Position numbers and translations under genes: made by a program. Shown here piece after piece: positions 9,924 to 41,098 of a stretch of 42,929 nt of DNA; the stretch's first letter is position 1, and the number at the start of each line of letters is the position of its first letter. Location: contig NZ_JMLH01000022.1 in the NCBI RefSeq assembly GCF_000686665.1, positions 1-42,929 of the forward strand, written 5' to 3'. The notes below the pieces were generated by a model. The model worked only from the letters and a program-made list of their open reading frames with translations. It was not told the DNA's origin and did not search any database. The DNA is from Thomasclavelia saccharogumia DSM 17460. GTDB taxonomy: Bacteria; Bacillota_I; Bacilli_A; Erysipelotrichales; Coprobacillaceae.

Positions 9924-11483
9924 ATGGGAATCTATTTAAATCCAGATAATGAAAAATATGCTGAAATGCTGCGAGGAGAAGTATTTGTTGATCATAGTTT
10001 ATTAATAGAGAAAACAAATCCTTTGATACGTACGCCAAATAAAATGTTATGTATCTCAAGACCAAGAAGATTTGGAAAGAGCACTGATGCCAATATGTTA
10101 ACAGCTTATTATTCCAAGGGTTGTGATTCATCACAGATATTCAATGATTTAAAAATCAGTCAGACAGAGTTATATCAAAAGCACTTGAATCAGCATAATG
10201 TGATCCATCTTAATATGCAGGATTTTTTAAGCGAAACACATGATGTTGAAAAGATGATTCAATTGGTGAATGATTCAGTTATTTGGGAACTGCTTTTGAA
10301 ATATAAGGATTTGTTATATTTTGATAAAACAAAACTTATTAGAGTTCTCAATGATATATACAGTCAGATTCAAAACAGCTTTATTTTTATCATCGATGAA
10401 TGGGACTGTATCTTTAGAGAATATCTGGGGGATAAAAAAGCTCAGGAGAAATATCTGGATTTTTTAAGGAATCTGTTGAAAGATAAAGCATATGTATCAT
10501 TGTGCTATATGACCGGAATTCTGCCAATCAAGAAATATGGAACTCATAGTGCTTTGAATATGTTCAAGGAAATATCGATACTCAACCCAACACCATTAGA
10601 AGAGTTTATGGGTTTTACAGAAAAAGAAGTTGAAGATTTATGTTTAAAATATGATATGGATTATGAAAAAATGAAGGACTGGTATGATGGATACAGGATG
10701 ACAGATGATTTATCAGTTTATAATCATCGTTCTGTAGTTTATGCTTTGATGGACAGAAAATATGAAAATTACTGGAGTGCAACTGAAACGTATGAAGCCT
10801 TAAAAGTCTATATCGATATGAACTATGACGGCTTGAAAGATGATATTGTCAAGTTACTGGCAGGAGAGAATGTCGCTGTACAGACGACATCATTTCAAAA
10901 TGATATGACAACATTTGAGACAAAAGATGATGTTTTAACACTGCTGATTCATCTAGGTTATCTAGGTTATAACAGTTCTGATCAGACATGTTATATACCC
11001 AATAAAGAAGTTATCGATTCATTTGTTAATTCGATAAGAAGTTCTAACTGGAATGAAACAACGAAAGCGTTATTAAACAGCAGAGCCTTATTAGAAGCGA
11101 CATGGAATAGAGAAGAAGAATTAGTAGCCAAGTATATCGAAGAAGCGCATTTGGATACAGCGATACTAACATATAATAATGAAAATGCCTTAGCATATAC
11201 GATTTCGATTGCGTATATATATGCAAGGAATCATTATACGATAATAAGAGAGATGCCAAGCGGCAAAGGATATGCGGATATGGTGTTTATTCCTAAAGGT
11301 GATAAACCAGCGCTGATAGTAGAATTGAAGTGGAATCAGGAAGTAGAGACAGCTATCAATCAAATCAAAGAGAAGAAATATTATTATGGATTAGAAAAGT
11401 ATTTAGATAATTTACTATTGATTGGTATTATTTATGATAAAAAGAGTAAAAAACATAGTTGTAAGATAGAGAAAGTAAATTAG
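9924..11483 (+). CDS. AAA-ATPase-like / PD-(D/E)XK nuclease fusion protein, paralogue 1
   Basis: 519 aa. The N-terminal AAA-ATPase-like domain has a Walker A-like R-P-R-R-F-G-K-S-T (about residues 46-54) and a Walker B-like F-I-F-I-I-D-E-W-D (about residues 150-158). The C-terminal PD-(D/E)XK-type nuclease domain shows G-Y-A-D-M-V-F followed by I-V-E-L-K-W, giving D...E-x-K catalytic residues. These multicopy proteins are common in gut Firmicutes and Bacteroidetes; their cellular role is not established. Both domains look intact. It shares almost identical DNA blocks with the copy at 41099 but differs strongly in between (about residues 93-145). It has its own -10 and is flanked by long spacers, consistent with an accessory insertion. 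Confidence 0.88.
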   Translation: MGIYLNPDNEKYAEMLRGEVFVDHSLLIEKTNPLIRTPNKMLCISRPRRFGKSTDANMLTAYYSKGCDSSQIFNDLKISQTELYQKHLNQHNVIHLNMQDFLSETHDVEKMIQLVNDSVIWELLLKYKDLLYFDKTKLIRVLNDIYSQIQNSFIFIIDEWDCIFREYLGDKKAQEKYLDFLRNLLKDKAYVSLCYMTGILPIKKYGTHSALNMFKEISILNPTPLEEFMGFTEKEVEDLCLKYDMDYEKMKDWYDGYRMTDDLSVYNHRSVVYALMDRKYENYWSATETYEALKVYIDMNYDGLKDDIVKLLAGENVAVQTTSFQNDMTTFETKDDVLTLLIHLGYLGYNSSDQTCYIPNKEVIDSFVNSIRSSNWNETTKALLNSRALLEATWNREEELVAKYIEEAHLDTAILTYNNENALAYTISIAYIYARNHYTIIREMPSGKGYADMVFIPKGDKPALIVELKWNQEVETAINQIKEKKYYYGLEKYLDNLLLIGIIYDKKSKKHSCKIEKVN

Positions 11484-14988: not shown

Positions 14989-15022
14989 AAAAACTTGGGA
15001 TGAGTTCACCCCAAGTTTTTTT
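14989..15022 (-). terminator. Intrinsic terminator of the left giant adhesin gene
   Basis: An 11-bp stem pairs 14989-14999 (AAAAACTTGGG) with 15010-15020 (CCCAAGTTTTT). Read on the minus strand it ends in T residues, and it touches the stop codon of the giant gene at 15021-15023. It could also act on plus-strand transcripts. Confidence 0.8.
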
Positions 15023-18000
15023 AACGAAGATATTTTTTCTTTTTTAAGAATGCTGATCCAATACCAATACTAGATGCAAATAACATTATAGTATAAGCAT
15101 TTAACAGTGTTGGATCAGATGTATCTGGATTTTGATTGCCATTGTCATTTGGAATTCTAGAATGATCTAATGTATTAATGATATTGTAACCATTTATTAC
15201 TGTATTGTAACCCTCAACAGCAGCTTCTGTTACTGTATATATAATTGCTTTACCATTTTGATCATATTTAGATAAACCATTAAATTCATATTTCCAATTT
15301 TTATTGGCACTAACGACTTGACTATTTATTTCTTTTCCATCAGCATACAGTGTTACAACAATGCTTTCAGGTCTAGTATTATACTGATTATCATTATCTA
15401 CCCAGATTTTTTGCCCACTAACGATAATATCTTTTTTATCAACTAAAGTATTTAGAAGATCAAATGTACCTTCAATATTACTTACCTCATAATCAGTATC
15501 ATTTATAGCTTTACCATCAATAGCAGTTTCCATAACTGCATATGTATATTCAACACCATTAGGATCATATTTATCTAAATTATTAAATTCATATTTCCAA
15601 TTAGTATCTTTACTAACATTCATTTCCTTAATAACTTTACTATTTTGCAATAAAGCAATAGTCACATTATTAGGTAAATTTTCATCAGACACATTTTTCC
15701 ATAACTTAGTACCAGCAACAACAGTTTCACCAGCTAAAGTATTTGTAATTTGATATTGATCAATAGTGCTTAAATAATTTTCAGCAATATTGATCTCTTT
15801 GACAACATATTCATGAACTTTACCTTCAGCATTAACTCTTGGTAAATTCATAAAAGTGTGCTGCCAATTATCTTTTGTAGTAATAGTCATATTTTCATAA
15901 TTAAGACCATCTTGCAATAATTCGATTTCAACACCATTAGGACGAGTTGAATAGGCGTTATTATTATCTAACCAGTTTTTAGTTACCGTAATACTAATTA
16001 CATCTTGATCTGTAAAAGTATTTGTAATTGTAAAACCATCATTTTTATTACCAGCATAAGTTGTTAAATAATGACTAATTGGATCTTCGCTAACTTTATT
16101 ATATTCAATCATGATACCATTTTCATCAAACGTAGGAACTTTTAATGTTGTAGACCAGTTATTATAATTATTTGCATTATCTTGATTTAATATAACTTCA
16201 TGTTCATTTAAATGAACTTTAATTTCATTTGGACGATATTTTTCTAAATTATCTCGATCATTCCAAATCTTATTGATAGCTATGATTTGATTCACAGGAT
16301 ATTTATTTCCACCAGTTAATGTATTAGTGATGACATTACCATCTTGCGACATTGTATAATCACTTGGTCTGTTGTCATTTTTTTCTTTAACTGTGTATTT
16401 GATAAGTGATCCATCAGGATTGTATTTATTAAGATCTGTAAATTCAAATTTCCATTCATTTTCTGTTCCTGTTACTAATTTACTATCAATTTCTTTTTCA
16501 TCAGCTAATAGGGCAACTGTGATGTTTTCCGGACGAATATTTAATTTGTTATTATCATCTTTCCATATTTTAGTACCTGTAACAGTGACATTTTGAGGAT
16601 CTTTTAATGTGTTGGTTAAAACATGATCATTATAACTGAATTCATAATCAGTATTTTCAATAGAAATATCATTTATATGTGTCTCTACTATCGAATAAAA
16701 ATTTTCAATGATTCCATTTGCTTGATACTTAGGAATGTTTGTAAATGTATATTGCCAATTAGTATCTTTTGTTAAAGTAACAGCGTCACCATAGTTATTT
16801 CCGTTTTGAATTAATTGAATAGTTATGCTATTAGGAAGATTATTTTCAGATACATTTTTCCATTCTTTACGAATAGGCAAATCAAATAACTCAATTTTTT
16901 CATCACCAACATGAGTATTTGTAATTGTACCACCACTAATTGATACCTCATAATCACCAACACGATTATTTATTACTGGTAAATCACCAACTTTTATTTC
17001 TTTGACAGAATATTCATATGGTGTTAAGCCATCATCTTGATATTCACGTAAATTATCAAACTTATGCTGCCAGTTTGTATCATTAGTTAAAACGACAGGA
17101 TCTCCATAAGTTTCATTATTTTGTTCTAATTGAATTGTAATATTTTCTGGAAGATTATCATCACCAATATTGACCCAGTGTTTTTTAACTGGATAAGAAA
17201 TAGTTGCTTTATCATTATCACTTACAAGAGTGTTATTGATTATTGTTTTTTCACCATCTTGTTGAACATATTTAATAGTAAAGTCTCTAACTCTTTCATT
17301 ATTTACATCAATATCGTTGATTTTAGTTTCTTTTGCTTTATATAGATCATATGGACTAATACCATTATCACTATATTTTCTTAAACCAGTAAATGTATAA
17401 TTCCACTCTGTTTCGTTTATTTGATTATTTTTTAATAATTGTACAGGAGCACCTTTATCATTATTATTATCTTCTAATTGAATAGTAATTGATTCTGGGA
17501 TATGACCGTTTGCATTGAGCCAGTTTTTGATTACCGGATATGTACCACTCATATCTTTATTTTTATCATCTTGTTTTAAAGTATTAGTAATATTTAAGCC
17601 ATTTTCATCAACTATATAATCACCAACAGCATTGTTTTTTACTTTTAATGTTGTGTTATCAGCAGTTACGCTGATTTCTTTAACACTATAAGTGTATTCA
17701 TTGCCATCTGCATCGTATTTTGGTAATGTGATACCGTTAAAATTAAATGACCATACTGTAACATTAGATTGATCTTTTTTATCAATAGTTTTAAAAACAT
17801 CATTACCATTAGTATCTATAGCTGGTTCCAGATTACCATTTTCAATATTTCGATATAACTGAATTTCAATTCTATCTGGAATGTTATCTTTTTCTACATC
17901 GACCCAGTTTTTTGTTCCTTCAAGTGAAGAACCATCAACAGTTCCACCTAAAGTATTAATAATATTAAGTTTTTCGTTATTATTAGAAGAATAACTTACG

Positions 18001-21000
18001 GTAAAATCACCAGCTTTATTATCTTCTACTTCGACATCATCAACAGCTGTTTCTTCAATACTGTAGATATATTCAGTATCATAATTATCTCGATCTTGAT
18101 AGACTGCTAAATCTTTAAACACATATGTCCAGGTAGTTTCCGTCTTAGACCATTCAGGCGTTACTTCTTTAACTAATTCGTTTTTACTGTTACTAGTTTT
18201 ACGATACAACGCAATTGTAATATTATCAGGAAGATTTTCTGGAGATAAACCATTCCATGTTTTAGTTACACTAACTTCTCTAGTTAAAGGTACATATGTA
18301 TTAATAACCTTATATATAAATGAGCCATCAGTTGCACTGTTTTCACTTATTGATGAATCAATGTTGTAGTTGTCATTATTTAGGTTTTCTTCTTTAATTG
18401 TATAATTGATGATTTTTCCTTCAGTATCATATTTATTTAATTCATGGCTTGTTACCCTACTATTATCTTTGGTAATAGTTAATGTTTCAACTGCAGATAT
18501 TTCATTATCATTTGCAATAATATCAAATGAAACCTCTGGGATGACAAAATCACTAGGTTGGTTTTGCCATTGTTTTTCTATCGTTACAGTTGTTTTGCCA
18601 ATCAAAGTATTTTTAATAGTAAAGTCATTTCCAGCGCCATCATCTTTTATATCTACTTGATAGTTTAATACTTGATTATCAATAACAGCAGTATCATTTA
18701 CTTTTATTTCATTGATCGTATAATCAACTTTCATACCATTGATAAACTCTGGTAGATCTTTCCAAGTATAAGTCCATTTATCTTTTTCGGTTAATTCTTG
18801 TATTGGGTTAAATTTATTTAAATCAACGATATCACCATTTGTAGTTTTAGCACTTAATTCGACAGTTACTGTATCGGGACGCTGATCTTTTAATGCAGCA
18901 TCTTTCCATACTTTAGTAACAGTTTTATTTACTTTGCCATTATCTAGTTGATTTATAAAAGTATACTTAGTTTCATTTTTATCATTTGAGATATCACTGT
19001 AGCCAGTTACACCTTCTTTAGGCGTGTTAATACCATCATAGTGTTCATATTCTTTTACTGAATAAATGTATTTTTTACCTTCATTGTTGTATTTAGGTAA
19101 ATTATCCCAGCTACCCTTTAATTTCTCATTAGTTAATTTAATTAGTGGAGAATCAGGAACAACATTTATATCAGTGCTTCCATCAACTCGACGATATAAT
19201 ACCATAGAGATTTCTTCAGGACGTTTTCCTTGAGCATCATTATCATCGATCCATTGTTTTTCTACAGCCATGGATGTGAAATTTTGCATATCATCTAATC
19301 TATTAGTTATTGTAAAGTTATTGTTATTATTTTCTATAGATGTAACATATTGATCATTAGGTAATGCACCCATTGTTTCTGAAACTGTATATTTGATTTT
19401 ATCACCATTATTGTTATAAACTGGTAAATTATCCCAGGTAATAGATTCACCATTCCAAGCTGGATCTGATGAAGAGATCGTTTTAGTTTGATTTTCTAGT
19501 TTTGTACCATCAGCAGATAATTCAAAAGTAATTGTATCTGGTCTAGTTTGATAGGCATCGTTATTATCGATCCATACTTTTTTTACAGATACAGAAGTTA
19601 AACTACGGTCATTAGTGATAGTGAAATTATATTTGTTATCATTGTCGATCGTTGCTTTATAGACTTCGTTATCACTTACTTTAATCAATTCATTTTCATC
19701 AGGTGAGTATTCATTACTGTTACTATCTATTAATGTTTCTTTAATAGAATAGTTGATTTGTTTATACTCGCCATTATCATCTTTTACAAGGGTTGGCAGA
19801 TCCCAATCGATCCAAGTATAAGACCATTCTTCACTGCCGTCTAAAATAACTGAAGAGTCTTGAGAATCGATTACATATTTCATGGTAAATATAACTATTT
19901 TTGAAGTACTGTCTTCATTACGTATAGATGATGATGGTGATAATACTGCAATTTCTTTGTCTTCGACAAAATAAGCAGTTTTAGCATCAGAAATACCTAA
20001 TTTTCCTCCATAAGTATCAGCAATCGTTATTCTTATTTCTGCCTTGCTGGCATAGTTGCCAGTACCTGGAGTACCAGTTGGTTCATCATATTTAAAAGTG
20101 TATATTTTTGATCCATTTTCTTTTACTTCAGAAGCTGTTACATCTTGTGACTTAAGATCCTTTTCACCATATTTAACTTTTAAAACAGCATCAGAACTTT
20201 CATCTTTTTGTTCAAGAATAGCTGTTATTTTATGATCCCGGTCTTCTTTTTTTATATTAGTAACAGTTTTACCATCAGCTAATAATTCAACTTTTACTTT
20301 ATATCCTTCTGGAGCCTCGGTTGTTTCACCGTTTTGAGTCCAAACTTTTGTAACAGTAGGAGTTAAATTTAGATTTGGCTGATTTGTAATGGTGAATATT
20401 AAAGCATTATCATCTTCTTTTTTATCGGTGTTGTTTGTTATCCAGCCTTCAGTAGCTGTTATTTCATTGACAACATAAGTGATTTCTACTTTGTTTTCTT
20501 TATTGTCTAAAATATAATCACCACCTGAATTAACTAAATATCTAGGTAGAGTGTATTTATTCCAAGTATAACTAAAAGCGTTTTCTTGATTTAATTCAAC
20601 GATTTTATAAGGCTCGTTTTCAATGCTTGCAATAATTTTTTTATTATTATCATCAATATATTCATAAGTTTGATATAGGCCGATTGTGGCACTAACATTG
20701 CTTAATGAATTATTACCTGAAGTTAATAATTCACCATTTTTATCAATCCAGTTTTTATTTACAGTTATTTCTTTTTCATAAGCATTATCTTTTATGCTTA
20801 TCGTCATACGACCATTGTTACCTAAATTTGATATTAAAACATCATTATTTAAAGTAGATTGGAAGAATCCCTCATCAGTACATGTCTTATTATCACCTGT
20901 TTCAGGATTATCAGTTATGATTGTATAAGAAACATCGTATAAATAATTGCCACTTTCAGAAATTGTTGGTGTATTTGCAATATGAATATCGATACTATGT

Positions 21001-23876
21001 TTGCTTTCTTTTTCAAAGAAAGATACATCAGTAGCATTATATTTTATACCATCAATTATAGTCTGTTCTTCAACAATAAAATCAAAATTAACACGTATTC
21101 CTTCGTTATTTTTATTAGTTATATCATCAATACATACTTTAAAACTTCCAACAGGAGGCCTGCTTGAATCAGTATCGCTAACCTTTCCCCAGAAAGAGCC
21201 ATCAGAAAAAAGAATTCCTGTAGCATTTGTAATAGTACTTCCATCAGCTGAATGATAGATGAAATAATCTTTAAAATTATTTTCATCAATTTTTTCTCCA
21301 TTTTGCGGTTGAATAATTTCTAATTGACCAACAAATGACTTAGCAATATTTCCCTTAGGCAGATCTTTATCTCGATATCTTATTATACCATCAGAATATT
21401 TATAATAAATATTACTATGATAACTATTCTTACCAATAGTTATCATATATCTATCACCTGATTGTACAACATTAATTCTATTACCATTTGAATCTTCAAT
21501 ATAATAACCATTTATATCCTGTTTCAATTCCATATAAACAGAAACGATTTCTTCTTCATTAGAAGTAGTAGGCGGTAAAGACTTTTCAATCAATATTGTT
21601 GCATCAGCTGCAGTTTTATCATTAGAAAGGACAGCTTCTGTATCATTAATAGTGATTGAATCAAGTGATAAATAATAATTATTCCATGATTGTCTACTAT
21701 ATATTGCAGAAACATTGATTCTAGCATTAGCTTCAATCGTTTCACCTGTATCATCAGCTGTTCCTTTGACTGTTATGGTTGTTTCACCACTCCAAAGAGC
21801 ATTTGTTGCAGCATTTCCAGATAAAGCAACAGTATAAGAATTACCATCATATGTAAAACTCATTTGTCCAGGGTTTAAAGAAAGTCTAATATCTTCTAAT
21901 TTAATATCAGCAGTTCCTTTTTCTGTTTCTGGTTGAGCTTTTTTTACAGGCATATCAACTTTTAGATATTCAGTTGTTGTCGCGGCAGCTTCTTTATCCG
22001 TTGTATATCCAATTTTATAATAATAGGGATTATCTTTAGCAGGTTTGAACTCTACATTTGAATAAGAATTTCCAGTTTCAAAATCATATAAATTAGTATA
22101 AAAAGCATAATCAGTAAAATTATTATTTGGTTTACCTTCACTATCAATTTCTAATCCTGAAAACAAAGAAGCATCTTCTTCCAAACCTACTTCATATAAC
22201 ATCCTAATTGGATAAGCAGTCTTATCATAATCATTTGTTCTACTATAAGTTGGCAAAAGGGCACTTGGAAAAGACCAGGTTATTTTATTATAACCAGTCT
22301 GGCCATTAACTACTAATTCATTATCTTTTTCAACTTTAAAAATAACGTCACTTAAACTAGAACCATCATTAGCAATTGGTCCCCCAGCTATAGTTCCATC
22401 CTGGGTCGTACCATTAAATTTATATGTACCATTCTCTTGTTTTTCAAATACATAATTGATTCCTTGATATCTTAAATACTGTTTATTGCCTTTTAACTCC
22501 ATCTTATAGCCAAGATAATCAGTAAAAGTAACAAAACTGTCGATATCACTACCACCAGATTCACTTGATACTGGGTTGTTTATTTCGGTATTAACGCTTG
22601 GAGCAATGGTCATATCTGAAAGAATATCTTTAAATGCATTTTCGAGATCTTCCTCACTCATTGAACCGCCAAAATATTTATCAGTATATTTATAATTATT
22701 TTTATATGTATCATCACGATTTAAAATAGTTTTTATCTCTCTAACTGTACTATTTGAATCAGTAGCAGTTGTAGAAGGATCTAACATAAAATGTGTCCAG
22801 TCTGTATTGTTGATATCTAGTCCAATTGTATAAAATTTAGCGACTGATTCTGATGAATCAGATAAGACATTTGAATAATCATATAAACCTTTATAATGTG
22901 TATCTAAAGTTTTTTTAGCATGATTAGCAGTTAAGATCGTGTATGCTCCAACTTCAGCATCATCATTATTATTATATCCACCATTGGCATTTCCTTGGTA
23001 TAGAGTGCCATTTTTAGGATCAATATAATCACTTTTAGCACTACCGGCAGCCCCATCAGATAATAAAACAAGAATAGGTAAACGAATTATATCGTCTGTT
23101 TTTTCTGTAGAATTTAATATTTCCATACCATGGTATATACCACGCTGTGTTGGAGTTCCACCACTTACCTCTTTACTTGAAGTGATAGGTATGCTGCTGC
23201 TATTTTTTACATAATAAGTTGTATTTCCCCAATTACTGCGCCTTGCAGCTCTAATGCTATTATTGGTATATTCTAGATATTTATTTTCATTTGAATCAGT
23301 TGAATATCTATCTAATGGAAATAAAGTTTCTGCGTTATTTTCGTTTCCTGCATTCTCACCTGAATATCCAACTATTCCAACTCGATTATTTTCATCTTCC
23401 ATTAATGTTTGAATTGATGAATTAACAGCATTTACCATTGCAGTTGCTTTTGAAGTACGACTTCCAGATATATGATCAGCCATACTTCCTGAAAAGTCTA
23501 AAACAAATACAACATCATAACCAATTTTTTGTTGGGTTGTAGACATTCCTACAGAGACGGTTGAGTATGTTTGGGCCATAGCTGATAGTGCAATATTAAA
23601 GTTGTTTTCACTAGCTGTAGCGCCATATAGTGTTCCCGTTGTTACAGATTTATCAGTCCATATTTTTCCATCTTCAGCAGGACTGCCGTTAAATATAGTA
23701 TTATTGCTTGAAGTATCCGGATCTGCTATAAGATTAGCTGAAAAGCCATCTAAGTTAGCAGTTTTATCATCTGATGCATATATTTTAGCAGGCTGAATGA
23801 CTGCTAAGATCATACTTGTTAGAATGATAAACATACTGAATATAAAACCTGCTTTTTTTAATGTTTTTTTCTTCAT
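15021..23876 (-). CDS. Giant secreted VWA/Cna_B-repeat surface protein (left adhesin)
   Basis: About 2951 aa. A signal peptide (residues 1-35, basic start, hydrophobic core, Y-A-S cleavage site) is followed by a head with G-K-I-W-T-D-K-S-V and a VWA domain (about residues 118-430). The MIDAS is complete: D127-F-S129-G-S131, a threonine in G-G-T-P-T, and L-S-D-G. The stalk has about 16 Cna_B-like modules of 80-110 residues, each opening with V-x-K-x-W and closing with I-T-N-T-L; such modules form Lys-Asn isopeptide bonds. The end is a wall-sorting signal with motif N-P-D-T-S-D, a hydrophobic helix and a K-K-K-K-Y-L-R tail. GGGAG before 23876 sets the start rather than the in-frame ATG at 23927. 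Its 5' side faces the invertible recombinase cassette. The likely role is adhesion to host or other cells; the ligand is unknown. Confidence 0.93.
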   Translation of the reverse strand: MKKKTLKKAGFIFSMFIILTSMILAVIQPAKIYASDDKTANLDGFSANLIADPDTSSNNTIFNGSPAEDGKIWTDKSVTTGTLYGATASENNFNIALSAMAQTYSTVSVGMSTTQQKIGYDVVFVLDFSGSMADHISGSRTSKATAMVNAVNSSIQTLMEDENNRVGIVGYSGENAGNENNAETLFPLDRYSTDSNENKYLEYTNNSIRAARRSNWGNTTYYVKNSSSIPITSSKEVSGGTPTQRGIYHGMEILNSTEKTDDIIRLPILVLLSDGAAGSAKSDYIDPKNGTLYQGNANGGYNNNDDAEVGAYTILTANHAKKTLDTHYKGLYDYSNVLSDSSESVAKFYTIGLDINNTDWTHFMLDPSTTATDSNSTVREIKTILNRDDTYKNNYKYTDKYFGGSMSEEDLENAFKDILSDMTIAPSVNTEINNPVSSESGGSDIDSFVTFTDYLGYKMELKGNKQYLRYQGINYVFEKQENGTYKFNGTTQDGTIAGGPIANDGSSLSDVIFKVEKDNELVVNGQTGYNKITWSFPSALLPTYSRTNDYDKTAYPIRMLYEVGLEEDASLFSGLEIDSEGKPNNNFTDYAFYTNLYDFETGNSYSNVEFKPAKDNPYYYKIGYTTDKEAAATTTEYLKVDMPVKKAQPETEKGTADIKLEDIRLSLNPGQMSFTYDGNSYTVALSGNAATNALWSGETTITVKGTADDTGETIEANARINVSAIYSRQSWNNYYLSLDSITINDTEAVLSNDKTAADATILIEKSLPPTTSNEEEIVSVYMELKQDINGYYIEDSNGNRINVVQSGDRYMITIGKNSYHSNIYYKYSDGIIRYRDKDLPKGNIAKSFVGQLEIIQPQNGEKIDENNFKDYFIYHSADGSTITNATGILFSDGSFWGKVSDTDSSRPPVGSFKVCIDDITNKNNEGIRVNFDFIVEEQTIIDGIKYNATDVSFFEKESKHSIDIHIANTPTISESGNYLYDVSYTIITDNPETGDNKTCTDEGFFQSTLNNDVLISNLGNNGRMTISIKDNAYEKEITVNKNWIDKNGELLTSGNNSLSNVSATIGLYQTYEYIDDNNKKIIASIENEPYKIVELNQENAFSYTWNKYTLPRYLVNSGGDYILDNKENKVEITYVVNEITATEGWITNNTDKKEDDNALIFTITNQPNLNLTPTVTKVWTQNGETTEAPEGYKVKVELLADGKTVTNIKKEDRDHKITAILEQKDESSDAVLKVKYGEKDLKSQDVTASEVKENGSKIYTFKYDEPTGTPGTGNYASKAEIRITIADTYGGKLGISDAKTAYFVEDKEIAVLSPSSSIRNEDSTSKIVIFTMKYVIDSQDSSVILDGSEEWSYTWIDWDLPTLVKDDNGEYKQINYSIKETLIDSNSNEYSPDENELIKVSDNEVYKATIDNDNKYNFTITNDRSLTSVSVKKVWIDNNDAYQTRPDTITFELSADGTKLENQTKTISSSDPAWNGESITWDNLPVYNNNGDKIKYTVSETMGALPNDQYVTSIENNNNNFTITNRLDDMQNFTSMAVEKQWIDDNDAQGKRPEEISMVLYRRVDGSTDINVVPDSPLIKLTNEKLKGSWDNLPKYNNEGKKYIYSVKEYEHYDGINTPKEGVTGYSDISNDKNETKYTFINQLDNGKVNKTVTKVWKDAALKDQRPDTVTVELSAKTTNGDIVDLNKFNPIQELTEKDKWTYTWKDLPEFINGMKVDYTINEIKVNDTAVIDNQVLNYQVDIKDDGAGNDFTIKNTLIGKTTVTIEKQWQNQPSDFVIPEVSFDIIANDNEISAVETLTITKDNSRVTSHELNKYDTEGKIINYTIKEENLNNDNYNIDSSISENSATDGSFIYKVINTYVPLTREVSVTKTWNGLSPENLPDNITIALYRKTSNSKNELVKEVTPEWSKTETTWTYVFKDLAVYQDRDNYDTEYIYSIEETAVDDVEVEDNKAGDFTVSYSSNNNEKLNIINTLGGTVDGSSLEGTKNWVDVEKDNIPDRIEIQLYRNIENGNLEPAIDTNGNDVFKTIDKKDQSNVTVWSFNFNGITLPKYDADGNEYTYSVKEISVTADNTTLKVKNNAVGDYIVDENGLNITNTLKQDDKNKDMSGTYPVIKNWLNANGHIPESITIQLEDNNNDKGAPVQLLKNNQINETEWNYTFTGLRKYSDNGISPYDLYKAKETKINDIDVNNERVRDFTIKYVQQDGEKTIINNTLVSDNDKATISYPVKKHWVNIGDDNLPENITIQLEQNNETYGDPVVLTNDTNWQHKFDNLREYQDDGLTPYEYSVKEIKVGDLPVINNRVGDYEVSISGGTITNTHVGDEKIELFDLPIRKEWKNVSENNLPNSITIQLIQNGNNYGDAVTLTKDTNWQYTFTNIPKYQANGIIENFYSIVETHINDISIENTDYEFSYNDHVLTNTLKDPQNVTVTGTKIWKDDNNKLNIRPENITVALLADEKEIDSKLVTGTENEWKFEFTDLNKYNPDGSLIKYTVKEKNDNRPSDYTMSQDGNVITNTLTGGNKYPVNQIIAINKIWNDRDNLEKYRPNEIKVHLNEHEVILNQDNANNYNNWSTTLKVPTFDENGIMIEYNKVSEDPISHYLTTYAGNKNDGFTITNTFTDQDVISITVTKNWLDNNNAYSTRPNGVEIELLQDGLNYENMTITTKDNWQHTFMNLPRVNAEGKVHEYVVKEINIAENYLSTIDQYQITNTLAGETVVAGTKLWKNVSDENLPNNVTIALLQNSKVIKEMNVSKDTNWKYEFNNLDKYDPNGVEYTYAVMETAIDGKAINDTDYEVSNIEGTFDLLNTLVDKKDIIVSGQKIWVDNDNQYNTRPESIVVTLYADGKEINSQVVSANKNWKYEFNGLSKYDQNGKAIIYTVTEAAVEGYNTVINGYNIINTLDHSRIPNDNGNQNPDTSDPTLLNAYTIMLFASSIGIGSAFLKKKKYLR

Positions 23877-23937
23877 AATATTTCTCCCTTCATAAATTTT
23901 AAATGAAATATCTAGTTTGACTTTCATTTAAATGATT

Positions 23938-23953
23938 TTGTAAACGGTTACAT
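23938..23953. promoter_or_regulatory. CcpA catabolite-response (cre)-like site
   Basis: TTGTAAACGGTTACAT matches the general cre consensus WTGNNARCGNWWWCAW at every fixed position. It lies about 61 bases upstream of the left adhesin start, inside the presumed leader, where CcpA could act as a roadblock. Confidence 0.55.
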
Positions 23954-24057
23954 AAATAATAAAAAATTAAAAATCATATTATTTAATTAATATACATATA
24001 GAAATCGGCAATAATAACATTAAATAATATAAAAGAAACATATTTTAACATTATTTG

Positions 24058-24086
24058 ATCATATTTATTTTAGTATATTTTGTCTT
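24058..24086 (-). promoter_or_regulatory. Weak candidate promoter for left adhesin outside the invertible segment
   Basis: On the minus strand AAGACA (24081-24086), a 17-bp spacer and TATGAT (24058-24063). AT-rich sequence makes chance matches common. If real, it would allow orientation-independent basal expression. Confidence 0.25.
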
Positions 24087-24182
24087 TATCCCTTCTTTCT
24101 TACTGATACTTATTATTGTTTTATTAAATTCTTGTATCAGTGACAATATTCGAATATTTATTTATTATTCTATATGTATAAT

Positions 24183-24207
24183 TTCATAGAATGCACTATT
24201 CTACGAT
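24183..24207. repeat. Left inverted repeat / recombination site
   Basis: 25 bp identical in reverse complement to 25264-25288. The core TAGAATGCACTATTCTA (24187-24203) has 6-bp palindromic arms (TAGAAT / ATTCTA) and a 5-bp centre GCACT, the layout of a tyrosine recombinase core site. Identity stops abruptly on both sides. Confidence 0.88.
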
Positions 24208-24223
24208 TAGTACACCTATATAT

Positions 24224-24252
24224 ATTTTATCATTAAAATAAAAATAAATAAA
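24224..24252 (-). promoter_or_regulatory. Candidate switchable promoter facing the left adhesin gene
   Basis: On the minus strand TAAAAT (24224-24229) with an upstream TG (TGATAAAAT, extended -10) and a poor -35 TTTATT (24247-24252) at 17 bp. It lies just inside the left repeat and fires outward through it. After inversion it would face the right adhesin gene. Confidence 0.4.
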
Positions 24253-24293
24253 GAAATAACTCTTATTCAAATAATTTATGAACATATTCTATC

Positions 24294-24323
24294 TATACTG
24301 TTAATTGTTAATAAATGAAAGGA
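24294..24323 (+). promoter_or_regulatory. Candidate -10 and ribosome site of the recombinase gene
   Basis: TATACT at 24294-24299, no convincing -35, and GAAAGGAAAA at about 24315-24324 before ATG 24334. Confidence 0.45.
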
Positions 24324-24333
24324 AAATAATATT

Positions 24334-25275
24334 ATGACAAAGTTAAATCAAAAAACAAAATTCAAACTTATTGCTGAAGACTGGTTAATTTTTAAAAAAT
24401 TAAGTATCAAACAGTCAACTTATATTAAATACGATAATTTATTAAAAATTCATATTTTCCCTTATTTTAAAGATATGGAATTTTTAGATATTGATGATGT
24501 ATCAATATCCATCTTTTTATCAAAAATGTGTGACAAATTATCTGCTAGTACAATTAAAACCATCTATTATCTAATTCAAGCTGTTTTAAACTATGGTAGT
24601 AAAAAATATAAGCTGGATTTAAGATACTATAATGTAAAATTACCAAAAATAAAAAGAAATGCTGTATCTTTAAGCGAAACTGAACAAATCATTATTGAAA
24701 AAAAAGCTAATGAACTAAATAAAGAAATAACTAGAGCTATCTTTTTAGGTTTATATGCTGGATTAAGATTAGGTGAGATATGTTCTTTGAAATGGGAAGA
24801 CATTAATTTTGATAGAAAAACTATCAATGTTAATAAATCAGTACAAAGAATCAGAGATATTTCTAATAATTCTAAAACTGTTTTATTGATTGGTACTACA
24901 AAATCTAATAATTCAAATCGAATTATTCCAATTTCTAGTCCTTTATTAAAATATTTGAAACAAATATATTTTAATAAAGGTGATTGTTATGTATTAAATG
25001 ATAAAGAAAAAGTAATTGATCCTCGAAAGATTCAGTTTCAATTTAAAAAGTTATTAGATGAATGTAATCTATCAGATATCAATTTTCATATGTTAAGACA
25101 TACGTTTGCCACAAACTGTATCAAATTAGGAATAGATGTTAAATCACTTAGTGAAATATTAGGCCATTCTAATGTTAATACTACATTAAATCTATATGTT
25201 CATTCATCATTAGAATTTAAAATGCAGCAAATGAATAAATGGGAAAACTTTATCTCTGATAATATCGTAGAATAG
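24334..25275 (+). CDS. Tyrosine recombinase (XerC/D-type), probable DNA invertase of the adhesin switch
   Basis: 313 aa. The N-terminal SAM-like/core-binding domain (about residues 8-95) is followed by a catalytic domain with all expected residues: R145 in A-G-L-R-L-G-E, H252 and R255 in H-M-L-R-H-T-F-A-T, H278 in L-G-H-S-N-V and the nucleophile Y288 in L-N-L-Y-V-H. The family cuts and rejoins DNA at short palindromic sites through a 3'-phosphotyrosine intermediate. The flanking perfect inverted repeats, and the fact that its last three codons and stop lie inside the right repeat, point to inversion of its own gene segment. GAAAGGAAAA supplies the ribosome site. No terminator is seen between it and the right adhesin, so read-through is possible. 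No excisionase or second recombinase is adjacent. Confidence 0.93.
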   Translation: MTKLNQKTKFKLIAEDWLIFKKLSIKQSTYIKYDNLLKIHIFPYFKDMEFLDIDDVSISIFLSKMCDKLSASTIKTIYYLIQAVLNYGSKKYKLDLRYYNVKLPKIKRNAVSLSETEQIIIEKKANELNKEITRAIFLGLYAGLRLGEICSLKWEDINFDRKTINVNKSVQRIRDISNNSKTVLLIGTTKSNNSNRIIPISSPLLKYLKQIYFNKGDCYVLNDKEKVIDPRKIQFQFKKLLDECNLSDINFHMLRHTFATNCIKLGIDVKSLSEILGHSNVNTTLNLYVHSSLEFKMQQMNKWENFISDNIVE

Positions 25276-25288
25276 TGCATTCTATGAA
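25264..25288. repeat. Right inverted repeat / recombination site
   Basis: Exact reverse complement of 24183-24207. It starts inside the recombinase gene and encodes its last residues Ile-Val-Glu and the TAG stop (25273-25275), then continues 13 bases beyond. Confidence 0.88.
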
Positions 25289-25463
25289 GTAATCATAATT
25301 GTATCAGAGAGGGGGCTAAGAGTTATTGATAGGGGGATTATTAGTATGCTTTAAAAGTTAATAAAAATTTAATAAGAATATAAGTAGAAGGAGATGATTG
25401 AGGAATAGATGTTAAATTAATAATATTATTATGACTATCAAATATGTGAAAGGAGTAAAAAAT
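25289..25463 (+). other. Leader of the right adhesin gene
   Basis: 175 bases with two G-rich patches (GAGAGGGGG near 25307-25315 and ATAGGGGG near 25330) and GTATCAG at 25301-25307, which also occurs on the other flank. I find no good promoter here, consistent with dependence on the invertible segment. AAAGGAG at 25450-25456 is the ribosome site for ATG 25464. Confidence 0.5.
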
Positions 25464-28400
25464 ATGAAAAACAAAAAAATAAAAAAGATAGGCTCTGGTA
25501 TATTTGTATTAGTTGTGATTCTTGCAATGATAATTGGTTTAATGCCGCAAGAATCAGTATATGCGTTAGAAGGGAAAACATCTGATAATAATACAACTAA
25601 TACATATACAGATTCTCTTGGTGGTGATACATCAACACAATATACTGGTCGTGTTTGGACAGATAAGACAGTATATGATGGAAATGCAACATTTACTGGA
25701 GATGTTAATGAAGGATCTCCTGAAGGGGTTACAATTGAAAATGATTCAGACTTTTTAGTTGCGTATTCCGCTCTAGCAAGTTCACAGTCTATCACTGGTC
25801 AAACTCAAGTACCAGTTGATGTTGTGTTTGTAATTGATAATTCCAATAGTATGGATGATAGGATAGGTGGAAATTCTAACCAAACGCGATTACAAGCAAC
25901 AGTTGATGCTGTAAATGATTCTATTGGTAAACTTATGGATGCTAATAAGGATTCACGAGTGGCGGTAGTTATTTATGGATTAAGTTCAAAAATTTTGATG
26001 CCACTAAATCATTATGAACGACGAAGTGATGGTAATTATATTACTCTTCAACAAAATGGTTCAGATACAGTTTTTTTATCTCCAAATTCGAGGTATTCTG
26101 TATCAATGTCAAGTGATGATAGAGGAACTAATACTCATATAGGTGTTGATACAGGAATGGATATTTTAGCAGAAGCCAGTGAAATTGAGAGCAATTTGCA
26201 AGATGGCACTAAAGTAAAGCATGTTCCTATTTTAGTATTATTATCTGATGGTGCTGCTACAGCATCTGGCCAAGGCGACTGGTGGAATCCTAATGGAACT
26301 TTAGGCTCAGGTACTAGTACTGCAAATTCATATAGTTTAAAAGTGGCTATGAATGCATCATATATGAAACAACGAGTAAATGATCATTATGGTGTTAGTT
26401 CAGATTCCCCTTATGCTACAAAGATATATACAATTGGAATGGGAATCGAACAATTGAGACAAACTGGTTGGAATGTAAATAATACAGATTATCATCGTGC
26501 CCAGATAGCCTTAGATCCAGGTAATCATATTGATGATAACAATAATGTGGCGAATGCAATTAGAACGCAGTGGAATAACTATTTAAATAATCGAACTGCA
26601 AGCTTGGACAGATATACATTTAATCATCCAAATTCAAATGATATTACAACAATTGCTTATAATGATGGGTATTATTCTGCAGAGAATGCTGAAGATGTAA
26701 ATAATGTATTCAGTGATATTACTAGTGTAATTTTAACTGATGCACCAATGATTCCAACTGAAGTTAGTGGTGATAATCCAGCAGAAGATGGATATATTAC
26801 ATATACTGATCCTATTGGTAAGTATATGGAAGTTAAAGATTTTAAAGCCATGATTTATGGTGGACAAGTATTTGAAAATCCTACAAAAAACACAGATTCT
26901 AATGGCATTACTACATATACATTTAGTGGTAAAATACATAGTGAGGTATACGGAGAGCAAGATGCTAGTCACATAGAAATCACTTTAAAAGAAACTGATG
27001 AAACACAGGAAACTGATAAAACACAGGTTTTAGAAATAAAAATTCCAGCTTCAGCAATTCCATTACGAGTTAATACTATTAATTTAAATTCTGATGGATC
27101 TGTAAAAACTAATACATCTAATAATGCTTATCCAATGCGTATACTTTATACAGTAGGATTAAAAGATGGGATTGTAGATGAAAATGGTGTTGTTACAGAT
27201 CAGGTAAGTGCTGATTATATTAAAGATCATTTAAATAGCGATGGTACAGTTAATTTTTATAGTAATCTATATAGTGGTAATACGGAAGATAATCAAAGTG
27301 TAGGTGATGCTACTGTTAGCTTTAAAGCTGCAGCAACAAATCAATACTATTTCTTCCAAGAAAATACGCCATTATACGAAGATGAGCCTTGTACTATTAA
27401 AGCTGCAACTTTTGAAGAAAATAGAACTTATTATTTTAAACAACAGTATTATGAAGGTACAGAATTAAAAACAGTTACTATTAGTCGTAAAGGCGCAATG
27501 CTAAATACTTATACTGATATTATAGATGGACAGTTACATATTAAAGCTGGAAGTCCACGTATTGGAAATTTAGCTCATTTTACTGGTGTAAAAGATTCTA
27601 ATACAACAAATACAGCAACAAATTACTATGTTCCTACATATGAACTTGATTCAGCTAATGGACATTTTGTTGTTTATTTAGGAAATAATGGTGTAGGGAA
27701 AGTAAAAGCAACTGGAACTTTAGAAATATCTAAAACAGTAACAGCTGATGAAGGTTTAACCGCACCTGATAAAGACTTTACTTTCACAGTTGCTTTGACA
27801 GATGCAAATGATGAAGGATTAAATGGAAGTTATGATTATACAATTGTTGATTCTAGTGGTGAAGCTATAAAAAATGCTGATGGTACACCAATAGTAGGTA
27901 CTATATCAAATGGTGGAAAATTAACATTGAAAAAAGATCAAAAAGCTAACATTACAGGATTACCACATGGCGCAAACTATAAAGTAACTGAAAGTGCAGT
28001 TAGTGGTTTTGAAACAAAATCAATTGGTGCAACTGGAACAATCAGCGCTGGTCAAACTATTACAGCAGCATTTACTAATAACTATTCTGTAACACCAGTT
28101 ACTTTAAATGGGTCAATAAATCTTCCAGTTGAAAAAGTGCTTACTGGTCGTGATTGGCAAGAAGGTGATAGTTTCACATTTGAAATTAGCTCTACAACTG
28201 CAACAGATCCACTTCCTGAACAACCATCAGTAACAATAGATTCAAATACAGATAATCATAAAACTGCATTTGGAAATATTACATTTACGAAACCTGGAGA
28301 ATATACATACACTATTATAGAGAAAACAGATAATAAAATTTTAGGCATAACATATTCAGATGCTGCTTATAATATAAGTGTGAAAGTTACAGATAAAGGT

Positions 28401-31400
28401 AATGGTACATTAGAAATTGAATCTAATATGTATAAAACATCTGAAGATGATGGAACAGAAATTTCTAAAGAAAATATTCAAAAAGTTGATAAGGCAATTT
28501 TTACTAATACTTACAATGCAACTAGTGCAAAAATAAGTTTGTTAGCTACAAAATCGTTAAGTGGAAATAAAGAATTATTAAATAGTATGTTCCAATTTAG
28601 AATAAGAGCAATTACACCTGGAGCTCCTATGCCTGGACAAACTGATGGAAATGGAAACGTTATAGTTTCTAATATTGGATCATCTATTAGTTTTACTAAC
28701 ATAGAATTTACTCCAGCTATGATTGGAAATACATATACTTATGAGATTTCTGAAGTAATTCCATCAGATGCAAAAGATAATGTTCTTAATGGAATAACAT
28801 ATGATAGTAAGAAATATACAGTTGATGTTGAAGTAACTGCAAGTAGTGATAATGATACCTTGGTTGTAATAGCTACACCAACATATAAAAATAGTGATGG
28901 TAATATAGTTGATAGTGTTACTTTTAATAATAAGTATGAAGCAACAAGTGTAACTCTTTCAGAAGATACGAATACAGCTATTCATGGAATTAAAACATTG
29001 AATGGACGTGATATGAAAGATGGCGAAACTTTTAGCTTTACTTTAACACCAGATGAAAATACGCTTTCAGCAATCACTGCTAAAGATGTTAGTGTAGGAG
29101 ATTTAACTGCTTCAGTTGAAAATGGACAAGCTGGTGTACCACAATTATTTAATTTTGGAGATATCACTTTTACAAAACCTGGAAATTATGTATTTAAAGT
29201 AGCAGAAGATGAAGGTAATGCTGGTGGTATTACTTATGATGAGCATGACTGTACTGTTACAGTTGTAGTAACGGATAATGGAAATGGTCAATTAGAAGCA
29301 GCTGTTACTTACAACAATGGAACAGGAAGTACAGATAATACTCAGTCAGTTTTTGTAAATACTTATCAGGCAGTTTTTGATACTGATACGGCTGTTAATA
29401 TCAATGGAACAAAGACTCTATCAGGTAAAGCTTTAGAAGCGAATGAATTCTTCTTTACTGTGGAAGCACAAGATAATGCTCCTATGGGTGCAAGCAGTAG
29501 CACTAATCCTAGTGATAATGCAGGAAGTATAGGATTGTTAAAAAATATTTCATATGAACAAGCAGGTACTTATGAATATATTATTAAAGAACAAATTCCT
29601 GAAACTAAACGTACAGGAATGACTTATGATGAATCTATTTATAAAGTTATTGTAACAGTAACTGATGATTTGAATGGAAATCTAAAAGCAACTTCAAAAA
29701 TTGAAAAGAGTAGTGATGGTGGAACAAACTACACTGATGCAAACAGTATTGAATTTAAAAATAGTTATGAACCACTTTCAGCAACAATGACTCCACTTGC
29801 AGTTACGAAAGTATTAAGTGGTGATAGAAATAATGGATTAAACGCTGGTGAATTCTCTTTTGAAATAAGTACTAATTCAGAAGATGGAATTATTTTACCA
29901 GCAAATAAAGTTGTTACTAATGATGCCAATGGAAAAGTACAATTTGAAAATATTACTTTTACAAAAGCAGGAACCTACGTTGTTTCGATAAAAGAAGTTG
30001 TTCCAGATAATAAAGTAGATGGTGTAACTTATGATGAGCACACTATAGAATCTACATTTAATGTAACTGATAGAAATGGCCAATTAGTTGTAACTAGATC
30101 AAATACAACTGGTAGTCAGACTTTCGAAAATGTTTATAATACAACAGGTAATGTAGATGGTGCAACTAATTTAAAAGTTACAAAAGTATTAGAAGGCCGT
30201 GATTGGCAAGCTGGTGATTCATTTAGCTTTGTATTAAGTGGAAATGATGATACAACAAATACAGCAATTAAAAATAAAGATATTATCTTACCTGATAATG
30301 CTAAAGGAATTACAATAACAAATGAAAATGAAACAAAATCAGCTGTATTTGGTGATATTACAATCAAAAAACCAGGAACTTATAAATTTACTATAAGCGA
30401 AGATGCACCTGATCCAGTGATAAATGGAATTACATATGCCGATGCAAAAGTAATTACAGTTACTGCTACTGATAATGGTAATGGAACATTAAATGTTACA
30501 GTATCAGGAAATACTGATTTGACTTTTGTAAATACTTATACTCCTAATGAAGCAATACTTAACGGTGAAGCTAATTTAAAAGTAACAAAAGTAATAGATG
30601 GTCGTGACTGGTTAGCTACAGATAAATTTAGCTTCAAATTAGAATCTGGAGATAATAACACAGAATTGGCAATTAAAAATAGCATTGTAAAAATGCCTGG
30701 TAGAACTCTTGTAATTGATAATGATAATAAAAATACTGCAAGTTTTGGTGATATTACATTTACAAAAGTAGGAACATATAAATTTAAAATAAGTGAAGTA
30801 GAAGGAGATATTTCAAAAGTAACTTATGATAAGACATCAAAAACAATTACTGTTGAGGTAGTTGATAATAAAGATGGTACAATGAGTGCAACTATTGTTA
30901 CTAATGAAAGTGATGATTTAACATTTACAAATAAATATACTCCAGATCCAGCAATTGTTGGTGCAACTAATTTAGCAGTAAGTAAAACGTTAACTGGTCG
31001 TGAGTGGAATGATACTGATGTATTTACATTTAGTATAGAAGCAGTTGATTCAACTACAAAAAATGCTGTTGAAGCAAAAGAAATTATATTAGAAAATCCA
31101 GAAACTAGTATAAATAAAGATACTGCGCGTCATACAGCAGCCTTTGGTAATATTAAATTTACAAAACCTGGTAATTATCAATTCAAGGTAACAGAGGAAA
31201 AAGGAAATATTAAAGGTATTACATACGATCCAAGTGAAAAATATGTCAATGTTAGTGTTACAGATGATAATAATGGAAAATTAGTAGCTAAGGTTAATGG
31301 AGAAGATCATGCAGTATTGGCATTTGAAAATACTTATGCCCCTGTTGATTCAGTAGTACTTAGTGGAGAAACATATTTAAAGGTAACAAAGAATCTCACA

Positions 31401-34400
31401 GGACGAGATAATGAATGGTTAGAAAAAGACATTTATATATTTGATTTGAAACCAGATACAACTGATACTATAACTGCTGAAGCTTATAATAATGGAAATA
31501 TTATTTTAGGTAATAGCTCATTAGTAGTTAATAGAGGAAATAGAGATACTGCACATTTTGGTGATATCACATTCAAAACTGCGGGAACATATAAATTTAC
31601 GGTTAGTGAAGTAGATACTGAAGTGGATGGAGTAGAATATGATCCTGCACCTACTAGAACAATTGTTGTCAATGTAACTGATAATCTTGATGGAACATTG
31701 AGTGCAGCACTTGACACTGAAAAAAGTCAATTATTAGAATTCAACAATGTTTATAAACCTAGTGAAGCCGTTCTTGAAGGAAGTACAGCATTAAAAGTAA
31801 CAAAGAACTTTACAGGACGTGACTGGTTAGGTAGTGAATTTACATTTAACTTAGCAGCAGGTAATATTACTACTCAAGAAGCAATTACTGCTGAAAAAGT
31901 AATTTTAAGTAATGATAGTTTAACTATCAATGAAGGAAATAAAGATAGTGCAAGTTTCGGTAATATTAGATTTAAAGAAGCTGGAACATACGAATTTATC
32001 GTAAGTGAAGTAGAAGGAAATATCCCAGGAGTAACATATGATACTGCACCTAGAAAAATTATCGTTAATGTAGTAGATAATAATAATGGTGAATTAGTAG
32101 CAACTATCGATAAAGAAAGTAAAGCTTTAACATTCAACAATAGCTATGCACCAAATGCAACAACTCTTGTTGGAAGTGAAAACTTACGAGTAACAAAAAC
32201 ATTTACTGGTCGTGCAAATAATGCGTGGTTAGAAACTGATGAATTTAGATTTGTTATAAAGGCAGCTGCAAATGATTTTGCGACTATTGAAGCTGTAGAA
32301 AATGGTGAAATTATTTTACCAGATGATTTAGTAATTAATAGTACTAATAAAGATAGTGCCAGCTTTGGTGATATCACATTTATAAAAGCAGGAACATATA
32401 AGTTTACAATAGGTGAAGAAGAAGGAAAGATTTCAGGCGTAACTTATGATAAGACACCAAAAACTATTACTGTTAATGTAGTAGATAAAAATGATGGTAC
32501 AATGGAAGCAACTCTTGTTGAAGGTAGTGGTGCTTTAACGTTCAACAATACTTATGCTCCTGAGCCAGTTCTTCTTGAAGGAAAAAATAATTTACAAGTA
32601 ACTAAGAACTTTACTGGTCGTGCAGGAGATGAATGGCGAAATGATGATATCTTTGGATTTATTTTAGCGGCTGATGAAAATGATCCAGCAACTAAAGAAG
32701 CCTTAGATCAAGGAAATATTGTATTGCCTGAAAATACTACTTTAGTTGTGACAAATAAAAATAAAGATAATGCATATTTTGATGGTATTACATTTAAAGC
32801 AGTAGGAACTTATAAGTTTACAATAAGAGAAACAAAAGGTAATACTGCTGGTGTAAGCTATGATGAATCTGTAAAGAACATTATTGTTCAAGTTACAGAT
32901 GATAATACTGGCGTATTAAAAGCAAGTGTTATTGAAGGTAGTGATACATTAACATTCAATAATACCTATGCACCTTTACCAGTAACTCTTGATGGAACTA
33001 AGAATTTAGTTGTTACAAAAGAATTCACTGGTCGTGCTAATAATCAATGGCTAGACACAGATGTATTTACATTTAATTTAACAGCTGCTGGTGATACATT
33101 AAAAGCTGTTGAAGCTGGTGATGTAAGATTCTTAGGAAATACAAAAGTTGAAATAAATAAAAATAGTAACAATACTGCAAGTTTTGGAAGTATTGAATTT
33201 ACAAAACCTGGAGAATATACATTCAAAGTAAATGAAGTGGATGGAAAAATCCCAGGTGTGACTTATGATTTAGTAGATAGAGTAATTACTGTTAAAGCAG
33301 TAGACAACAATGATGGTTCAATGAGTATTAGCGTTAAAGGTAATGATGATTTAACATTTAGTAATGTTTATCAAACTGAAAATGTTATTTTAGACGGTAA
33401 AACAAATCTTAATGTTACAAAAGTATTGGCAGGTCGTAACTGGAATGATACTGATAGCTTTAAATTTGAATTAAAAGCTTCTGATGAAATAACAAAAGCA
33501 GCTGTTGAAGCTGGAAAGATTGAATTACCTGAAACTACATTGACTTTAACAAAAGCATTACAAACAAATAATTTTGGTGATATTACATTTAAAGAACCAG
33601 GAACTTATACATTAGAAATTTCTGAAGTAAATGAAAATATTGAAAGAGTTGGATATGATAGTCATGTAACTACAATAAGTGTTGAAGTTACTGATAACAA
33701 CGAAGGTCAACTTGTTGTTGCAACACCTACAGTAAGTGGAGAAATGACATTTACAAATACATATACTCCTGCTCCTGTAACAGCAACATTACAAGGTACA
33801 AAAGTAATGAGTGGACGTGATTTAAAAGATACTGATAAATTTAGCTTTACAATTGAAGGTATCGATAACGCTCCAATGCCACAAGTTACAACTGTAGAAA
33901 ATGATAAAGATGGTAATATCAGCTTTGCTCCAATTACTTATCGTGAAGCTGGAACTTATGAATACACAATCAAAGAAACTGGTGGATCAGCTGCTAGTGT
34001 TACTAATGATAGTGGAACAGTTAAAGCAACGGTAAAAGTAAGTTATGATATGGATACAGGAATTTTAACTCCGGATGTTACTTATGTAAAAGAAGGCGGA
34101 AATGGTGAAGGATTTACTTTCACAAATAAATATGTAGCAAGTCCAATCGTACTTGCAAATGGATTTAGTGCTACTAAAGTAGTAGAACCAAGTGAAGGAA
34201 ATAATTATGAATTAAAAGGTGAAGAATTTGAATTCATGATTACGCCATCACAAAATAATCCAACAAGTGATCCAATTGAGCAAAAAACTGTAACAAATGA
34301 TAAAAATGGAAATATAACATTTGCAACTGATATTAAATACACTGAAGCCGGAACTTATGTTTATGATGTAAAAGAAGTTAGCGGAAACTTAGGTGGTATA

Positions 34401-41062: not shown

Positions 41063-41094
41063 TGGTATAATTATTTCCTAAAGAAAGGAATGAT
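41063..41094 (+). promoter_or_regulatory. Promoter -10 and ribosome site of the AAA-like gene at 41099
   Basis: Extended -10 TGGTATAAT (41063-41071) without a clear -35; AAAGGA at about 41084-41089 before ATG 41099. Confidence 0.6.
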
Positions 41095-41098
41095 AAGT

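Follow-up and report, generated by a model that had tools for sequence, protein, structure and literature searches.

A predicted self-encoded promoter-inversion cassette between two divergent giant surface-protein genes of Thomasclavelia saccharogumia

The question raised by positions 24183-25288 of the DNA analyzed here, a 42,929-nt stretch of Thomasclavelia saccharogumia DSM 17460 called the window below, is whether a short segment that encodes its own recombinase can choose between two giant surface-protein genes lying on either side of it.

The segment, its recombinase and the flanking genes

The features considered are listed in the order of their window coordinates.

15021-23927, minus strand: left giant surface-protein gene (2968 aa; VWA and 14 Cna_B repeats)
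23877-24182, minus strand: left leader, from the left site to the left adhesin, without a terminator, unlike in the sister species
24183-24207, plus strand: left recombination site (inverted-repeat arm), TTCATAGAATGCACTATTCTACGAT
24224-24255, minus strand: predicted outward promoter Pout, with the -35 element TTTATT, a 17-nt spacer and the extended -10 element TGATAAAAT at 24232-24224
24334-25275, plus strand: intact tyrosine recombinase gene (313 aa), within the segment 24183-25288
25264-25288, minus strand: right recombination site, the exact reverse complement of the left arm, holding the recombinase stop codon
25289-25463, plus strand: right leader, from the right site to the right adhesin, with its first 110 nt conserved in the sister species and without a terminator
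25431-35708, plus strand: right giant surface-protein gene (3425 aa; VWA and 19 FctA/streptococcal-pilin isopeptide repeats)

The segment is 1,106 bp long and carries the recombinase gene as its single gene. The recombinase has a Phage_integrase domain (PF00589, E=2e-30) with the R-K-H-R-H-Y set of tyrosine recombinases, and these residues, R145, K190, H252, R255, H278 and Y288, are invariant in an alignment of 18 family members. The solved relatives nearest by sequence are XerA, XerC-like proteins and integrases (Int). The enzyme is not a serine recombinase of the Hin/DNA-invertase type, and its gene lies within the segment, as in that type.

The two inverted-repeat arms are perfect over 25 bp each and contain an internal dyad, TAGAAT-gcact-ATTCTA, which is of the form expected for tyrosine-recombinase sites. 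The arms form the only exact inverted pair of at least 18 bp in the 42.9-kb window, and a search of the 3.14-Mb genome for the 23-bp core of the arm, with up to three mismatches allowed, gave just two sites, both at the segment borders. The arm folds as a short hairpin (-7.9 kcal/mol) and would lie near the 5' end of either predicted adhesin transcript; no Rfam match was obtained within the window. Short inverted repeats thus bound the segment as they do in promoter invertons. The sites are intergenic, except for the final codons of the recombinase itself, and so they do not lie inside coding sequences in a way that would make new protein variants, as sites of the hsdS/PsrA type do.

The two surface-protein genes are divergent, each reading away from the segment. 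Ribosome-binding sites and signal peptides place their likely true starts at 23876 (-) and 25464 (+). The signal peptides and the repeat architecture suggest surface display of both giant proteins, and their domains point to an adhesive function, for which the term adhesin is used here. The initial annotation had claimed a complete tyrosine recombinase with R145, H252, R255, H278 and Y288, enclosed by perfect 25-bp inverted repeats and set between two divergent giant surface-protein genes, and each part of this description was borne out.

The left adhesin gene is absent from the other genomes of the genus (nine species compared). Two similar open reading frames at 9924-11483 and 41090-42652, both with the motif LCISRPRRFGKSTDAN and probably ATPase-like, flank the variable region on either side. 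Across the genus, the interval between the RNA methyltransferase gene and the malic enzyme gene looks like an insertion hotspot.

The predicted outward promoter and the sister-species locus

Ordinary sigma-70 scans gave no excess over shuffled sequences in the AT-rich region of the segment and so were uninformative there, for which reason a motif was trained on other loci. This motif was built from 19 cassette sites, with the window and its sister locus excluded. Its best site between the two adhesin start codons is 24232-24224 (-), with 13.3 bits as against 9.4 bits for the next one, and this site is among the top five of about 86,000 window positions. Pout thus lies at the recombinase-upstream end of the segment and points left out of the segment, away from the recombinase; as judged from the DNA, a putative internal promoter is aimed out at a regulatable gene, as in promoter invertons. 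The -35 element of Pout is weak, agreeing with the consensus at 3 of 6 positions. Extended -10 promoters can tolerate a weak -35 element. The stretch 24157-24253, next to the left site, is 84.5% identical to that of the sister species.

The -10 element of Pout lies about 347 nt from the likely start of the left adhesin (23876) in the assembled orientation, and once the segment was inverted, the right adhesin would start 216 nt downstream of it. Since Pout is predicted upstream of the recombinase gene and directed away from this gene, the expectation is that the left adhesin is ON as assembled and the right one after inversion. In the proposed mechanism, the recombinase gene, whose upstream region also lies inside the segment, would be independent of orientation, and its product would recombine the two 25-bp sites and flip the segment. 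As assembled, transcription from Pout would run leftward across the left site and on into the left Cna_B adhesin; after inversion, Pout would feed the right FctA adhesin.

A sister species, L008 (= G003/L045), an Erysipelotrichaceae metagenome-assembled genome, encodes the closest homologue of the recombinase at the corresponding locus. The sister recombinase is 89% identical, and its gene is enclosed by perfect 24-bp repeats in which an A to G change is found at the same site in both arms. The RNA-methyltransferase-like and malic-enzyme-like outer genes, the segment and its orientation are common to the window and G003. The right adhesin is also common to both; the DNA of its C-terminal half is 82% identical, whereas its first 645 residues are only 29% identical. 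Along the gene, this appears as a mosaic of a divergent part (25464-30166) and a conserved part (30166-35708).

In G003, the promoter end of the segment faces a strong terminator (L008 1671-1641 (-), dG -17.1, z -5.6). By the same simple folding rule, which makes terminator calls approximate, none is called on either side of the segment in the window. G003 thus has one adhesin plus a terminator, whereas in the window the left adhesin occupies the place of the terminator. Among those other members of the genus for which the sequence beside the RNA-methyltransferase gene was read, neither an adhesin nor a cassette was matched there, one of the contigs being short; in the closest genome, G007, the orthologous contig ends before the locus.

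The reading that we prefer, with a probability of roughly three in four, is that 24183-25288 is a self-encoded promoter-inversion cassette that would choose between two adhesins and that would have been derived from an ON/OFF switch by terminator replacement. The second adhesin gene would have taken the place of the OFF-state terminator, turning an ON/OFF switch such as that of G003 into an A/B switch. The simplest history is that an ON/OFF adhesin cassette became an either/or switch when a second gene was gained in the OFF direction; alternatively, the left adhesin may have been lost in G003.

It is rather unlikely that the segment inverts but turns one adhesin ON and OFF only, the other adhesin having its promoter outside the segment. 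A one-adhesin ON/OFF version exists in the sister species, and nearly all other cassettes described below are one-sided. In addition, there are two more extended -10-like sites in the left leader, at 24019 and 24050, so that the left adhesin could own a separate promoter. However, these two sites have no -35 element and score 6.9 and 5.5 with the trained motif, far under the 13.3 of the internal promoter, and the left side retains no terminator.

A family of self-encoded cassettes

At least 24 cassettes with their own recombinase and their own bounding repeats are present in one family of gut Firmicutes. They were curated by hand among fetched homologous loci of this one bacterial family, and the set includes close relatives, so that its members are not independent. 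Homologues of the recombinase, with 36-89% identity, are found in many genomes of the family, and in the curated cassettes the recombinase lies within a segment of 1.0-1.5 kb between inverted repeats whose sequence varies by locus, half-site spacer included. The recombinases that carry repeats do not group as one clade. An extended -10 element, TGNTANNNT, is located no more than 50 bp inside the recombinase-upstream repeat and points outward in 23 of the 24 cassettes; the other three combinations of edge and strand give 2/24, 2/24 and 0/24, with 3.5 expected from dinucleotide shuffles.

When viral contigs were searched with the single recombinase, no relatives were found, and the family profile retrieved only distant phage integrases from them. 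The best 15 of these served as a negative control; treated alike, all 15 lack flanking repeats. Random placements in the same DNA, some of which may overlap real cassettes, reached a score of at least 17 in about 1% of trials.

Cassettes in relatives serve either capsule operons or a gene for a DNA methyltransferase or for a single adhesin. Self-encoded cassettes precede capsule/EPS operons at L039, L041, L043, L046, L047, L051-L054, L056, L058, L083, L084 and L098; these operons begin with NusG-like genes, as a rule a tandem pair, and some species carry at least two such cassettes. A sub-clade adjoins a D12 adenine methyltransferase gene (L044, L062, L064, L072 and L080), with a GmrSD/DpnI_C-type restriction gene across the cassette from it at three loci; this sub-clade is a probable case of phase-variable restriction-modification. 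Longer Int-like recombinases at L076 and L042 belong to a separate clade; at L076, 1.38 kb is enclosed by perfect 24-bp dyad repeats, and L042 has a weaker 19-bp pair.

At five homologous recombinase loci (L048, L055, L057, L063 and L066), one repeat arm is missing or degenerate, and these are likely to be locked or decaying switches. Family loci that have lost an arm look locked, and so switches of this family can die. It is improbable, for all that, that the cassette in the window is itself a relic, with intact repeats and recombinase and an orientation fixed in nature. Such a state would fit the loss of one arm in several distant family members, as well as the single orientation seen: no second orientation of the locus was observed, there being no contig with the alternative orientation in the strain's own assembly and the same recombinase-to-right-adhesin orientation in the sister species, with one genome per species. 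Against it, both arms are perfect and co-changed in the sister species, and the catalytic residues are kept.

Comparison of orientations bears on the polarity of the cassettes. In 19 of 24 loci, the recombinase gene reads toward the gene or operon that is the target, and the outward promoter consequently points away from the target (OFF). In about 15 of the 19 OFF-oriented loci, an intrinsic terminator lies just outside the promoter end, placed to stop the outward transcript, while an operon-side candidate is called in only two of them. The ON arrangement, with the promoter facing the operon, is found at L043, L056, L062 and L068, and the window is the 24th locus, with a gene on each side. Capsule loci are seen in both orientations, and one genome (G029) combines an ON capsule cassette with two OFF ones, the spacers of all three being different. 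At L068 (8929-10103 in recombinase-oriented coordinates), capsule genes lie on the promoter side and a lipoprotein-like gene reads away on the opposite side, with no terminator called at either side of the cassette; it is possible that this is a second two-way cassette.

At L044 and L064, the GmrSD/DpnI_C-type gene is on the promoter side and the D12 adenine methyltransferase gene is opposite. Homologous flanking genes (54% and 47% identical) are on swapped sides of the segment at L062, so that the cassette has inverted between orthologous loci, as compared with one genome per species. The switch reading of the initial annotation thus gains comparative support from the co-changed repeats of the sister species, the intact recombinase, the conserved outward promoter and this inverted methyltransferase locus. 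Inversion at 24183-25288, transcription from Pout and the alternate display of the two adhesins are what we infer from the locus.

The terminators also bear on a polarity like that of Hin, in which read-through from the recombinase gene would now express the right adhesin and inversion would redirect this read-through. In favor of this arrangement, the repeat contains the recombinase stop codon, and the recombinase gene and the right adhesin are not separated by a terminator. It is nevertheless very improbable, because the terminators of the sister species and of most capsule loci are placed for the outward promoter and not for the recombinase transcript, and the promoter conserved in the family is directed away from the recombinase. 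Finally, a small mobile element, consisting of a recombinase gene with terminal repeats inserted by chance between two genes, was rejected as an exceedingly remote prospect despite the presence of homologous 1.1-kb units in many contexts, because the borders have no direct repeat that could be a target-site duplication, the segment is a single copy with ends unique in the genome rather than one of several same-ended copies as in insertion sequences and transposons, the end sequence is private to each locus, the position is kept in the sister species and the layout of promoter and terminator is conserved.

Comparison with known inversion systems and meaning

Hin is a serine recombinase encoded inside the segment that it inverts (PMC5903667, PMC9368917). 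In Salmonella, the H-segment promoter serves a single operon, fljBA, and FljA acts in trans to repress the other antigen (PMC9368917). The present locus resembles this system in that the invertase gene and a promoter lie inside the flipped segment and two surface antigens are predicted to alternate; it differs in that the enzyme is a tyrosine recombinase, the promoter is divergent from the recombinase gene and both antigens are encoded in cis on either side. The Hin-like topology proposed in the initial annotation therefore holds for the recombinase inside the segment but not for polarity, as the predicted promoter, located upstream of the recombinase gene, faces in the opposite direction.

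A tyrosine-type invertase gene, psrA, is also present within the inverting hsdS locus of pneumococcus (PMC12324116). This cod/SpnIII hsdS inverton with PsrA (CreX) is alike in having the gene for its tyrosine invertase inside the inverting locus, but it shuffles hsdS coding sequence without promoter inversion or a choice between flanking genes. The use of a tyrosine recombinase instead of a Hin-type enzyme, which the initial annotation had pointed out, is correct for this locus, and tyrosine recombinases encoded within the DNA that they invert are known.

Control of UpxY-containing capsule operons by promoter invertons is well established in gut bacteria (PMC11892184). The invertons of Bacteroides capsule loci with UpxY and those of hCom2 share with the present cassettes the short inverted repeats, the outward promoter and first genes of the NusG/UpxY type; their invertase is normally encoded outside the inverted DNA and is sometimes a master enzyme, whereas here each cassette has its own enzyme and its own site. 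In Clostridioides difficile, several ON/OFF switches are under the control of RecV, which is encoded elsewhere (PMC5903667, PMC7446863). These switches (cwpV, flagellar and cmr) likewise combine a tyrosine recombinase with surface genes in a gut Firmicute, but unlike the cassette at 24183-25288 they are neither self-contained nor two-way.

In Campylobacter fetus, according to a citing article, a single invertible promoter serves the surface-layer genes of the sapA system (Dworkin and Blaser 1996, cited in PMC4902306). As far as that account goes, the likeness lies in one promoter on an invertible segment that chooses between surface-layer genes. The sapA segment is 6.2 kb long and inverts in a RecA-dependent manner by recombination in homologous gene starts, and it is not known to contain a dedicated recombinase.

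In the searchable open-licence literature, no description was found of a self-contained cassette uniting a tyrosine recombinase with private sites and an outward promoter, nor of a two-way version between two adhesins. We likewise did not find there the reuse of one cassette type before capsule, methyltransferase and adhesin genes. The initial annotation knew of no description of this arrangement, and this stands for its two-way form in the open-licence literature; the locus is not a one-off, belonging as it does to a family of at least 24 cassettes.

On balance, these loci probably represent an undescribed family of autonomous, self-flipping promoter cassettes of about 1.1 kb that serve capsule, restriction-modification and adhesin genes in Erysipelotrichaceae and relatives, one of which became an either/or switch between two adhesins through terminator replacement. 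To our knowledge, phase variation in gut Firmicutes outside C. difficile has been little studied, and most promoter invertons that we know of rely on enzymes encoded elsewhere. If the proposal is true, private sites at each locus would explain how several independent switches could operate in one cell without cross-talk, and self-contained cassettes would serve as genetic parts in laboratory strains. The window and the sister species would form a before/after pair for the evolution of an ON/OFF switch into an either/or surface-protein switch, in which the cell would most likely exchange one surface protein for the other at each flip.
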